64,000 bases of DNA from Crocinitomicaceae bacterium TMED114 (lineage in GTDB: Bacteria > Bacteroidota > Bacteroidia > Flavobacteriales_D > Sanyastnellaceae): positions 189,081 to 253,080 of the forward strand of contig NHFP02000005.1 in assembly GCA_002172485.2 (NCBI GenBank), given 5' to 3'. Shown piece by piece: positions 38,056 through 41,314 of this stretch. Below the pieces are notes generated by a model that searched no databases, was not told where the DNA came from, and worked only from the letters and a program-made list of their open reading frames with translations. Each line of letters begins with the position of its first letter. Position 1 is the stretch's first letter. Position numbers and translations under genes: made by a program.

Positions 38056-39195
38056 TCAGAGTTCGTCGGTCAGCGCTTGGATCACCTTGAATCCGCTGAG
38101 GAATTCTTTGGCCAGTACCCGGATCACCGAGTATGCGGGGATGGCCAGCATCATACCGGTGATGCCAGCAAGGCTCCCCGCAATGCTGATGAGCAGGAAG
38201 ATTTCGAGGGGATGCGCCTTGACGCTGCCGGCAAAAATGACGGGCTGCGTAAAGAAGTTGTCGGCCAATTGGCCTGCCAGGAAGACGAGGGCAGCCTGGC
38301 CCATCAAGCTGCCCAGATCGGGGGCTTGCAGGTGGGTGGTGAGGATGAGGCCCAGCCCCAAGCCTGCACCCAGGAGGGGGCCGACGTAGGGGATGAGATT
38401 GAGCAGTCCTGCGAGGAATCCGATGAGGAACGCATTGGGTACGCCGAGCAACAGAAGGCCGCTGGTGATGATGGTGGTGATGATGGCGACCTGGACGGCG
38501 AGTCCGATGAAATACCGGGTCAGCAGCTGGGTCGAATTCTCCAGAACCCGCTCCAGCCGTGGCACATGGCGGTCGGGCGTCAGCGCCTTCAGGATACCGG
38601 GAAAGAGCTGGCGGTCCTTGAGAAAGAAGAAGGTCATGAAGGAAATGCTGAACACGGCGATGACGAGATTGCCGGCCAGCGAAAAGATGCCGCTGAGGAA
38701 GCCGCCGAGGCCATTGGCACCCAACGTCGAGCTGAGGGCCTGACTGAGGTTGGCCGTGTCGAGCCATGCGAGCGGATCCTCCCCTTGGTCGAGGAACATG
38801 GGGGTGAGGTCATGGACCAATGTGCTGAGATCGCGCGCCGTACCCTCGAAGTCGATCGCACTCAGCACTTGGGCTTCTGCAGTAATGAGTGGGGCAAACA
38901 GACTGACGAGCAAACTGAATCCCAGGAACATCAAGGCGAGCGCCAAGACGGCGCCGACGGTGGAGCCGATGGCGCGTCCTGCGATGCGCGTCCGGTCACA
39001 CCATTGAACCAGAGGGCGTCCAATGAAGCTCAACGCGATCGACAGGATGAGGTAGGCCGTCAGGTCCGAAAACCGGAACAAGGCACCCAACAACAAGGAC
39101 AAGCCGATGATGCCGGCGATGCGGCGCAGCGTCCAGAATTCCGCTTTGAAAGGGCGGAGCGACAGGATGTCCTGGTCCTGCGAGGTGTTCTCCAT
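38056..39195 (-). CDS. AI-2E family transporter (PF01594)
   Basis: The 379-residue polytopic membrane protein has about eight spans and the AI-2E family pattern: early paired spans (LSLLLGALFRFSDLTAYLIL), a middle amphipathic/extracytoplasmic region, and the C-terminal NLIPYVGPLLGAGLGLGLIL and GITGMMLAIPAYSVIRVLAKEF segments. Members transport autoinducer-2 in one case and act as Na+/H+ antiporters in others; no clue here to substrate. TAATTTCC sits 12 bases before the ATG. Starts nine bases after the SixA stop, in the same direction. Confidence 0.9.
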   Translation of the reverse strand: MENTSQDQDILSLRPFKAEFWTLRRIAGIIGLSLLLGALFRFSDLTAYLILSIALSFIGRPLVQWCDRTRIAGRAIGSTVGAVLALALMFLGFSLLVSLFAPLITAEAQVLSAIDFEGTARDLSTLVHDLTPMFLDQGEDPLAWLDTANLSQALSSTLGANGLGGFLSGIFSLAGNLVIAVFSISFMTFFFLKDRQLFPGILKALTPDRHVPRLERVLENSTQLLTRYFIGLAVQVAIITTIITSGLLLLGVPNAFLIGFLAGLLNLIPYVGPLLGAGLGLGLILTTHLQAPDLGSLMGQAALVFLAGQLADNFFTQPVIFAGSVKAHPLEIFLLISIAGSLAGITGMMLAIPAYSVIRVLAKEFLSGFKVIQALTDEL

Positions 39196-39204
39196 GTCGG
39201 GAAA

Positions 39205-39684
39205 TTACGCGTTCCGTCCCGGGTGGTGGCCCTTCAGGTGCCCCGATCCTTTGCCCACCCCGCTCCAGTTGGCCACCTCCAGTTCGATGTGGACCACATC
39301 GGCGGTCGACATGCCAATCCGATCGCCTGTCAACTGCAGGACCAGATCGCTGATGCCGGGGTTGTGCCCCACGACCCACAGCCGCTTGGTGCTTGCATCG
39401 GTCATGCCAATGAGATCTACCCAAGTATCCGCATCAGCGAGGTAACCGGTGGGCGTGATGTGGTGCGGCGGCGCGCTGTCCCAGGCGTCGAGGAGGGATT
39501 GCAGCGTCTGCTGTGTCCGAACAGCATCGCTCACCACGAGGGCGTCTGAGGCCTTGCAGGGAAAAGCCAAGCCTTGGCGATGGGCTTCCATTCGGCCGCG
39601 CTCAGCCAACGGGCGCTCATGGTCACGCTGGCCAATGCGCGCTGGTTCGGCTTTCCCATGGCGGAGGAGGAACAATTCAAGCAT
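39205..39684 (-). CDS. sixA: SixA-type phosphohistidine phosphatase
   Basis: The 159-residue histidine phosphatase has the RHG motif (FLLRHGKAEPA, catalytic His at about residue 9) and the second His in VVGHNPGISDL. Length and sequence fit SixA, which removes phosphate from HPt domains or phosphotransferase components; a general small-molecule phosphatase role is also possible. The start is ATG 39684. It is divergent from mntR, and its promoter region may be covered by the same palindrome. Confidence 0.88.
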   Translation of the reverse strand: MLELFLLRHGKAEPARIGQRDHERPLAERGRMEAHRQGLAFPCKASDALVVSDAVRTQQTLQSLLDAWDSAPPHHITPTGYLADADTWVDLIGMTDASTKRLWVVGHNPGISDLVLQLTGDRIGMSTADVVHIELEVANWSGVGKGSGHLKGHHPGRNA

Positions 39685-39730
39685 CTCAGAATTTATCAGA
39701 CTGCAAACAAATTTCGTGAGCAGATTGAAA

Positions 39731-39756
39731 TGATTTTTAGTTGAGGCTAAAAATCA
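39731..39756. promoter_or_regulatory. Perfect palindrome, candidate MntR operator
   Basis: TGATTTTTAG (39731-39740), a six-base spacer TTGAGG, and CTAAAAATCA (39747-39756) form a perfect ten-base inverted repeat. It lies 29 bases before the mntR ATG and 46 bases before the divergent sixA start. Size and the TTTTAG/CTAAAA halves suit binding of a DtxR/MntR-family dimer, suggesting metal-dependent autoregulation. Confidence 0.6.
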
Positions 39757-39769
39757 ATTTGTTCTCGTC

Positions 39770-39777
39770 TAATTTCG
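39770..39777 (+). promoter_or_regulatory. Candidate -7 element of mntR
   Basis: TAATTTCG, one base off TAnnTTTG, starts 16 bases before ATG 39786. The palindrome at 39731-39756 sits immediately upstream, where a bound repressor would block the -33 region. Confidence 0.4.
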
Positions 39778-39785
39778 CGGCTTCC

Positions 39786-40481
39786 ATGCCCACGGTCAGC
39801 GACGAGAATTACCTCAAAGCCATTCTGCACATCCAAGAAGAAGGGCAAGAGAAGGTCAGCACCACCGATCTCGCGGACCGCGTGTCGGCCACGCCGGCGA
39901 GCACATCGGCCATGCTCAAGAAACTGGGGGCCAAGGGGTGGGTGGTGCACAAGCGTTACCATGGTGTGCAGCTCACCGACAGCGGACAGCGAATTGCCAT
40001 GGACATCGTGCGTCGCCACCGTCTGTGGGAGTCCTTTCTGGTGGACCACCTGGGCTTCGATTGGGACCAGGTTCACGACATCGCCGAAGAGTTGGAGCAC
40101 ATCAACAGTGTGGAGCTGACCAACCGGCTGGATGCCTTCCTCGGGTTTCCGAAGCTGGACCCCCACGGAGATGCCATTCCCGGACCCAATGGCCGCTTCC
40201 GCTCCGTGGCTGCGCGCACGTTGCTGTCCGAGGCCCCACGCCATCTGGAACTCATCGTGGTGGGGGTCGTGGATGGCCGCGATGCGTTCCTCCGCCACCT
40301 CGGTGTCCTGGGCATTTCGCTGGGCACCCGGTTGACCGTGATCCGGCGGTACGCCTTTGACGGCAGCTTGGAGGTCCGCTTTGCTGACAGCGGCGAAGAC
40401 GTTCAAATGTTGTCCCCCTCGGTTTGCGAGCGCCTCTGGGTCGACCAAGACGCCGAGGCGCCGTCCATTCCATTTCCTTGA
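39786..40481 (+). CDS. mntR: DtxR/MntR-family metal-dependent repressor
   Basis: From ATG 39786 the 231-residue protein has an N-terminal winged helix (ENYLKAILHIQEEGQEKVST, ATPASTSAMLKKLGAKGWV), the metal-binding and dimerisation domain (HRLWESFLVDHLGFDWDQVH, AEELEHI with His/Glu ligands) and a C-terminal FeoA/SH3-like domain (GISLGTRLTVIRRYAFDGS). In the family, Mn2+ or Fe2+ binding enables repression of uptake genes. The TTG at 39741 would place the operator inside the coding region, so the ATG is preferred. It is followed after 11 bases by a ZIP transporter gene, presumably co-transcribed and under its control. Confidence 0.92.
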   Translation: MPTVSDENYLKAILHIQEEGQEKVSTTDLADRVSATPASTSAMLKKLGAKGWVVHKRYHGVQLTDSGQRIAMDIVRRHRLWESFLVDHLGFDWDQVHDIAEELEHINSVELTNRLDAFLGFPKLDPHGDAIPGPNGRFRSVAARTLLSEAPRHLELIVVGVVDGRDAFLRHLGVLGISLGTRLTVIRRYAFDGSLEVRFADSGEDVQMLSPSVCERLWVDQDAEAPSIPFP

Positions 40482-40492
40482 AAAACACTCAC

Positions 40493-41314
40493 ATGCAGTT
40501 CATTGAGACCTTCCTTCAAGAGTCCGGGCCCGTGACCGCGGCGCTCCTTGCAACCACCTTTACCTGGCTGATGACCGCCGCGGGTGCGTCGCTGGTGTTC
40601 TTTTTCAAGACGCTGCATCGGCGGTTGCTGGATGGGATGCTGGGATTCACCGGCGGTGTGATGATCGCAGCGAGTTGTTTTGGTCTGCTGATTCCCGCCA
40701 TGGACATGACCGGTGGGGAGGGCTTGGCGTCCGTCACACCTGCGGCGATTGGCTTCATCGTGGGGGCGTTGTTCCTGTTTGCGTTGGACAAACTCACGCC
40801 CCACCTGCACATCAATTTTGACCGCAGCGAAGCGGAGGGCCCCAAGACGGATTGGCACCGCACCACTTTGCTTGTGCTGGCCATCACCTTGCACAACATT
40901 CCGGAGGGATTGGCCGTCGGCGTGCTGTTTGGCGGTGCCGCGGCTGGCATCGAAGGCGCCACCATCGGAGGTGCCTTGGCTTTGGCCATCGGCATTGGCA
41001 TCCAAAATTTCCCGGAAGGCATTGCGGTCAGCATGCCGCTTCGCCGGCAGGGAGTGTCCCGCGGGCGCTCCTTTTGGTTTGGTCAGCTGAGCGCCATCGT
41101 GGAGCCTGTGGCCGGTGTGGTGGGGGCCATCACGGTGTTGACCATCGAGCCGCTCTTGCCTTACGCGCTGGCCTTCGCGGCAGGGGCCATGATTTACGTG
41201 GTGGTGGAGGAAGTGATCCCCGAAACCCAGCGTGACAAATACACCGATGTGGCGACCTTGGGGTTCGTACTCGGTTTTGTCCTGATGATGGTGCTGGACG
41301 TGGTCCTCGGCTGA
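40493..41314 (+). CDS. ZIP-family divalent metal transporter
   Basis: The 273-residue inner-membrane protein has eight hydrophobic spans with the ZIP metal path: LAITLHNIPEGLAVG (span 4 His and Glu) and GIGIQNFPEGIAVSMPLRRQG (span 5). It resembles ZupT/GufA-type importers of Zn, Mn or Fe. Its position after mntR suggests manganese or iron supply, but the cargo is inferred. The start ATG 40493 (MQFIETFLQESGP) fits the first span. Confidence 0.92.
   Translation: MQFIETFLQESGPVTAALLATTFTWLMTAAGASLVFFFKTLHRRLLDGMLGFTGGVMIAASCFGLLIPAMDMTGGEGLASVTPAAIGFIVGALFLFALDKLTPHLHINFDRSEAEGPKTDWHRTTLLVLAITLHNIPEGLAVGVLFGGAAAGIEGATIGGALALAIGIGIQNFPEGIAVSMPLRRQGVSRGRSFWFGQLSAIVEPVAGVVGAITVLTIEPLLPYALAFAAGAMIYVVVEEVIPETQRDKYTDVATLGFVLGFVLMMVLDVVLG

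Follow-up and report, generated by a model that had tools for sequence, protein, structure and literature searches.

A conserved palindrome before a DtxR/MntR-type repressor gene of a Bacteroidota bacterium as a probable autoregulatory operator

The palindrome and the repressor gene beside it

The locus considered here raises the question of what an exact palindrome does in the short gap between two divergent genes, a DtxR-family repressor gene (mntR-like) and a gene for a sixA-like histidine phosphatase, and to which of them it belongs. In the window, that is, the whole stretch of 64,000 nucleotides that was analyzed, the sixA-like gene starts at 39684 on the minus strand and the mntR-like gene at 39786 on the plus strand, leaving a gap of 101 bp with a G+C content of 36%, compared with 61% for the window. 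The palindrome, TGATTTTTAG-TTGAGG-CTAAAAATCA, lies within this gap at 39731..39756 (no strand assigned) and has exact 10-base arms around a 6-base loop. The exactness claimed for it in the first-pass annotation was borne out, the interval of 39685-39785 given there being the entire gap. No other perfect inverted repeat whose arms have at least 10 bases and whose loop has at most 10 exists in the window. Repeats of that size occurred 0 or 1 times per sequence, and 5 times in total, in eight first-order Markov random sequences of the window's length, which corresponds to about 0.6 per 64 kb, so that the bare palindrome is near the chance level and proves little. What raises it above chance is the conservation of its core across relatives. 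This 16-bp operator core, TTTAGTTGAGGCTAAA (39736..39751, no strand assigned), matches the consensus TTTAGnCnnGnCTAAA at 11 of the 12 fixed positions, position 7 being T where the consensus has C. Within the genus, conservation is higher in this core than at the outermost bases of the 10-bp arms.

The mntR-like gene (39786..40481, plus strand) encodes a DtxR-family repressor of 231 aa with a helix-turn-helix (HTH), a metal-binding/dimerization, and a FeoA domain. The N-terminal DNA-binding domain (Fe_dep_repress, PF01325) scored 51.6 bits against a cut-off of 26 and the metal-binding/dimerization domain (Fe_dep_repr_C, PF02742) 106.6 bits against a cut-off of 27, and the FeoA domain was also above its Pfam cut-off. 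The four NCBIfam equivalog models listed for MntR/DtxR all stayed under their cut-offs, the best being NF047407 (MntR) with 151.6 versus 350 bits. The best solved relative by sequence was 5zr4 (E 3e-47, residues 7-219), which we take to be MntR Rv2788 of Mycobacterium tuberculosis, followed by 8pvt, a putative iron-dependent repressor that is presumably DR2539 of Deinococcus radiodurans, and by SloR and ScaR. In the numbering of the window protein, His78, Glu82, His97, Glu101, Glu104, and His105, presumably the metal-site residues, did not vary among the 14 aligned sequences, and residue 11 was Lys in all 14, where the binuclear site of the Bacillus-type Mn-selective MntR has Glu11. The MntR of Bacillus subtilis is an Mn-responsive repressor of the DtxR fold, from which the window protein thus differs by this Lys and by the added FeoA domain, and its operator sequence differs from the present core. 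An analogy in spacing to the DtxR/IdeR box was dropped, because the half-sites of that box are arranged otherwise than in this core.

The second of the solved relatives offers a closer comparison at residue 11. In the excerpt of the report used here (PMC3327659), DR2539 is described as an Mn/Fe-dependent DtxR-family repressor of mntH, which requires an inverted repeat for binding and responds to Mn(II) and Fe(II), and in which Lys replaces Glu11 of MntR and His98 and an SH3-like domain are present. The window protein resembles it in having Lys11, His97, and the FeoA domain, but it belongs to another phylum, and its operator would serve mntR itself and a ZIP gene, whereas the target shown for DR2539 is mntH; the comparison was one of proteins and targets. 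Because Lys11 and His97 are shared with a repressor that, in the same excerpt, responds to both metals, our best guess for the metal sensed is Mn with possible Fe. The ZIP-family metal transporter gene (40493..41314, plus strand, 273 aa) follows mntR after 11 bases and is probably in the same operon. Its product was above the Pfam cut-off for Zip and had 135 versus 252 bits for ZupT (NF003243), below the cut-off.

Conservation of the core and the predicted mntR promoter

To score the core, matches at the 12 fixed positions were counted within 160 nt upstream of mntR, with a threshold of 10 and the reversed consensus as the control, in loci chosen by protein and not by motif. A search of 60 relatives with the mntR protein gave matches in 53, of which the best 30, including that of the window, were taken as loci. 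As a result, a core of at least 10/12 was found upstream of mntR in all 14 same-genus loci, that of the window among them, in 13 of the 16 further family or order loci, among which G005 is of the same genus as the window, and in 62 of the 80 named Bacteroidota loci, these being the best 80 of at least 590 relatives found with an alignment of mntR proteins; the reversed control reached 10 in none of 110 loci. Each of the 15 genus genomes with an identified mntR had a core in this position that differed from the 12 fixed bases no more than once. The first-pass annotation had made its reading depend on orthologues also carrying the palindrome, and the core is indeed present upstream of them. Furthermore, the best-conserved blocks of the gap in the 14 sixA-bearing genus loci were TTTAGnCnnGnCTAAA with some A+T flank and a TAATTTYG-like block beside the ATG of mntR.

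Eight of the 18 named loci that missed the threshold were noticed after the fact to carry the core in front of a gene that lies upstream of mntR on the same strand. In L088, it precedes the series receptor, thioredoxin, mntR, and ZIP, all on one strand; in L143 and L153, it precedes Nramp with mntR next; and in L090, L109, L116, L130, and L148, it precedes a gene for 332-339 aa that is followed by mntR. In the other 10, no core of at least 10 was found before mntR or a same-strand upstream gene: L152 has a core before Nramp only, L103 has one inside mntR, L100, L111, and L167 have only score-10 matches elsewhere in the locus, and five are without any match of at least 10. As a side observation on the five loci with the 332-339-aa gene, which are from Pontibacter/Rufibacter, this gene resembles by eye that of a FabH-type ketoacyl synthase, and genes resembling those of a metal ABC transporter come next in four of the five, with an Nramp gene in L130.

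In the pooled set, which includes motif-picked loci and is therefore biased upward, 105 of 126 distinct upstream regions had a core of at least 10, compared with 1 of 126 for the control. Scores of at least 11 occurred, with the same upward bias, at 87 of 18,624 upstream positions versus 11 of 631,999 other positions in the 126 loci. T at position 7, as in the window, was present in 26 of the 105 cores. The gene after mntR is a ZIP gene or, in others, an Nramp gene, and the gene diverging across the 105 core-bearing regions is sixA in 28, a TonB-dependent receptor gene in 26, an AI-2E gene in 6, and another gene or none in 45. A second, partly diverged copy of the box was seen upstream of mntR in L012 and L013, with half-sites that are by eye 8 bases apart instead of 6, and near the first copy in L071 and L072 (positions 1501 and 1523).

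The block beside the start codon suggested a promoter. A predicted -7 element of mntR, TAATTTCG (39770..39777, plus strand), matches the Bacteroidota TAnnTTTG at five of six positions and begins 18 nt past the core. In the genus, the spacer from the core to this element was 18 nt in 11 of 14 loci and 19 nt in 3, the match was 5 or 6 of 6, and the core-to-mntR distance was 30-34 nt. The mean best -7 score on the mntR side was 5.64/6 versus 4.12 for shuffled sequences, the maximum of 500 shuffles being 4.57. The numbering T-12, A-11, T-8, T-7, T-6, and G-5 was taken from the part of PMC6847099 consulted. With the G of the element as -5, the transcription start of the window is predicted at 39782 (plus strand), 4 nt before the start codon. 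The end of the -7 box lies 4 nt from the ATG of mntR in 13 of 14 genus loci and 8 nt in the window, so that the predicted +1 would be the A of the start codon itself in those 13 genomes. With an 18-nt spacer, the core is predicted to span -46 to -31, including the -33 position, and because of this coverage, a bound repressor should block a near-leaderless mntR–ZIP transcript. Such a layout is uncommon but known, given that 5.5% of mRNAs are leaderless in a Flavobacterium according to the accessible part of PMC9723704. As no TTTG element is visible at -33, the promoter is only half-predicted. On the mntR side of the 105 cores, -7 matches of at least 5 peaked at spacers of 8 (11 cores), 18 (15), 19 (9), 24 (11), and 25 (7), with fewer at other spacers, and on the receptor side at a spacer of 8 (9 of 26).

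Autoregulation, its alternatives, and sixA

Taken together, these observations make it very probable that the palindrome serves the mntR–ZIP operon as an autoregulatory operator, acting by metal-dependent repression: as would be expected of such an operator, it is a conserved palindrome before a repressor gene and appears to overlap its predicted promoter. The assignment to the DtxR/MntR-family gene and the ZIP gene made in the first-pass annotation is supported in this respect, with the core tracking mntR across Bacteroidota. In cells replete with Mn(II), and possibly with Fe(II), a metal-loaded dimer of the DtxR-family protein would bind TTTAGN6CTAAA and, lying over the part of the mntR promoter that is contacted around -33, would keep RNA polymerase off. 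When the metal is scarce, the repressor would be released from the core, and the repressor and the ZIP protein, presumably an importer, could then be made from one shared transcript that would start no more than a few bases from the start codon of mntR. The functions assigned here to the palindrome and the genes are read from sequence throughout, and that the element is of an ordinary regulatory kind is well supported by comparison. No description of such a box in Bacteroidota was found in the open-licence literature, as judged by titles and the starts of abstracts, and none of a Bacteroidota MntR-type box in the part of PMC12574912 consulted. The analysis thus provides an operator consensus and a promoter layout that can be put to the test for a DtxR/MntR-type repressor of this phylum.

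We give next to no credence to the view that the inverted repeat arose by chance in a gap rich in A+T: 10-bp arms without a mismatch do occur in random sequences, at the rate noted above, but this reading is already contradicted by the retention of the core in every genus genome with mntR found and by the fixed spacing between the core and the promoter in the 14 aligned genus loci. It is also improbable, to a lesser degree, that the core is bound by another regulator controlling mntR, such as a Fur-type or an unlinked DtxR-type protein. Fur-like regulators also use short A+T-rich palindromes as their sites, and MntR is here the presumed binder; however, the core stays with mntR through changes of neighbor, transporter type, and lineage, of which autoregulation is the simplest cause, and eight of the loci without a core directly before mntR have it before a same-strand upstream gene.

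Several observations bear on the proposal of the first-pass annotation that the operator is shared with the divergent sixA, so that the bound repressor would also repress or activate sixA and make the phosphatase metal-responsive. The sixA-like gene (39205..39684, minus strand) was above the cut-off for PF00300 and had 53.7 bits for SixA (TIGR00249), below the cut-off of 74.5. It is divergent from mntR over a gap of 94-113 bp in all 14 genus loci, which would favor a bidirectional operator, as would two genomes (G017 and G034) in which a TonB receptor gene and, after it, sixA lie behind the core in one direction; the two genes are 5 bases apart in G034 and, according to the start codon chosen, about 8 to 26 in G017. 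In four loci of a sister genus (L065, L068, L077, and L078), a -7-like box can also be seen by eye near the sixA start beyond the core. In the genus, however, the sixA side had a mean best -7 score of 4.57/6 versus 4.67 for shuffled sequences, 408 of 500 shuffles being as good or better, and neither this scoring nor the spacing profiles of the 28 sixA-facing loci, in which some sixA starts are tblastn projections, gave a promoter signal: at most 3 of the 28 agreed in spacing, at 24 nt. Conservation is poor in the half of the gap nearer to sixA, and the core-to-sixA distance is 48-67 nt in the genus and -9 to 156 elsewhere in the family. Furthermore, a sixA model run against 10 genomes had no match in five (G005, G097, G107, G113, and G129), all of which retain the core at mntR, and the detached sixA of G021 and G025 had no core of at least 11 nearby. 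Sharing of the operator with sixA is therefore not supported, and we regard metal control of the phosphatase as unlikely, albeit less so than binding by another regulator. The attractive idea that sixA ties histidine phosphorylation to metal status is accordingly weakened.

Regarding gene order, an AI-2E family membrane protein gene (38056..39195, minus strand) lies downstream of sixA as a conserved neighbor, and the order AI-2E, sixA, (receptor), box, mntR, ZIP recurs in the family (38056-41314 in the window; L176-L183). Several such loci have a CTP-synthase-like gene beyond, and the receptor or sixA comes and goes.

Genes behind the box elsewhere

The first-pass annotation had suggested a scan for the motif near metal genes, which gave a divided outcome: no second site was found in this genome, and in relatives, the core also precedes Nramp genes and TonB-dependent receptor genes. 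TTTAGN6CTAAA occurs perfectly at one place in the 1.73-Mb assembly, which is 67.6% complete. Allowing one mismatch added one place, inside an open frame (L033), compared with 58 for the reversed control, and the longer TTTTTAGN6CTAAAAA with up to two mismatches was found at this place alone, compared with 2 for the control. A wider regulon thus found no support in the window's own genome, at that completeness of the assembly. Of the 17 genus genomes, 14 contain the perfect motif, at a total of 18 places versus 55 for the reversed control, and mntR accounts for 13 of the 18; G001 and G005 have a one-mismatch core at mntR, and in G003 and G014, mntR was not found in the protein search. The stricter TTTAGNCNNGNCTAAA occurred at 51 places in 45 of 114 family genomes, versus 36 for the control. 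Of the 51, 29 are at mntR, 10 precede TonB-receptor genes, and 1 precedes a di-haem oxidoreductase gene; the other 11 are at various locations, several of them inside open frames. The window's core is outside these 51 because it has no C at position 7. Motif counts per genome were dropped as evidence, the reversed control often being as frequent or more so (18 vs 55; 51 vs 36), and because the genome-wide totals do not differ tellingly from the control, only position carries the argument.

Among the genes so positioned, the receptors, which are the divergent genes in 26 of the 105 core-bearing regions, form a distinct class. For the 51 places in the family genomes, receptor identity is by Pfam in L049, L055, L056, L066, and L071 (L056 having been tallied with the mntR places) and otherwise by tblastn similarity. 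In 40 receptor rows hand-picked from loci with receptor hits, a CxxC was present in the plug region in 37, with QN, QT, NV, SV, NI, GI, or GV between the cysteines; L056 and L178 are one gene, L063 is a fragment, and L125 and L126 are without CxxC. The control consisted of 30 plug domains read out of 103 matches in six genomes; CxxC was found in four, of which L184, L194, and L197 have a core of at least 11 in the locus and L186 adjoins a second mntR-like gene with no core of at least 10. None of the 26 control plugs without CxxC had a core of at least 11 and four had a core of 10, L212 among the 26 being a partial match that stops short of the CxxC position. A thioredoxin-fold protein follows the receptor of L180 (L180:4440-4901), and relatives of it are directly after the receptor in L088 (L088:2465-2986), L142 (L142:216-683), and L159 (L159:145-648), many loci being too short to include this position. 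Receptors with a CxxC plug that lie beside mntR or behind the box can be seen, for example, in L049, L055, L056, L071, L129, L140, and L180.

A comparable module is known from Stenotrophomonas maltophilia. In the part of the 2026 report available (PMC13217887), MntR boxes are described before importer genes and a receptor with CxxC in the plug, the module consisting of a CQNC-type TonB-dependent receptor and a thioredoxin-fold protein under MntR control; receptor–thioredoxin synteny is given for Lysobacterales, Sphingomonadales, and Opitutales, and the receptors are sparse across diverse taxa. The Bacteroidota relatives show a similar pairing of box and CxxC receptor. The window's genus differs from it: with the L049 receptor, one subtype, as the query, no close orthologue was found in the 17 genus genomes, there being three matches with E up to 1e-20 and 29-30% identity, and no CxxC was found in the plug domains read in two of them (5 of 12 in G000 and 5 of 15 in G001). 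We tentatively propose, with a confidence slightly short of even, an MntR regulon throughout Bacteroidota whose second main target would be TonB receptors with a CxxC plug, sometimes together with the thioredoxin-fold protein. These could form a redox-gated outer-membrane importer of Mn (or Mn/Fe) under TTTAGN6CTAAA that would be wider than the Stenotrophomonas module, and the receptor would appear to have been lost in the window's genus, with sixA left facing the box. No report of a link between the box and receptors in Bacteroidota was found in the portions of the open-licence literature seen. As a marker of this separate class of receptors, the box may offer a handle on the passage of manganese through the outer membrane of these bacteria.

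A further gene behind the same box was observed in the genus mate G005, a di-haem oxidoreductase (DHOR) gene (L047:1501-2744), and in a Flavobacteriales MAG, the box separates mntR from a divergent gene for a DHOR homologue (L127:1676-2950).
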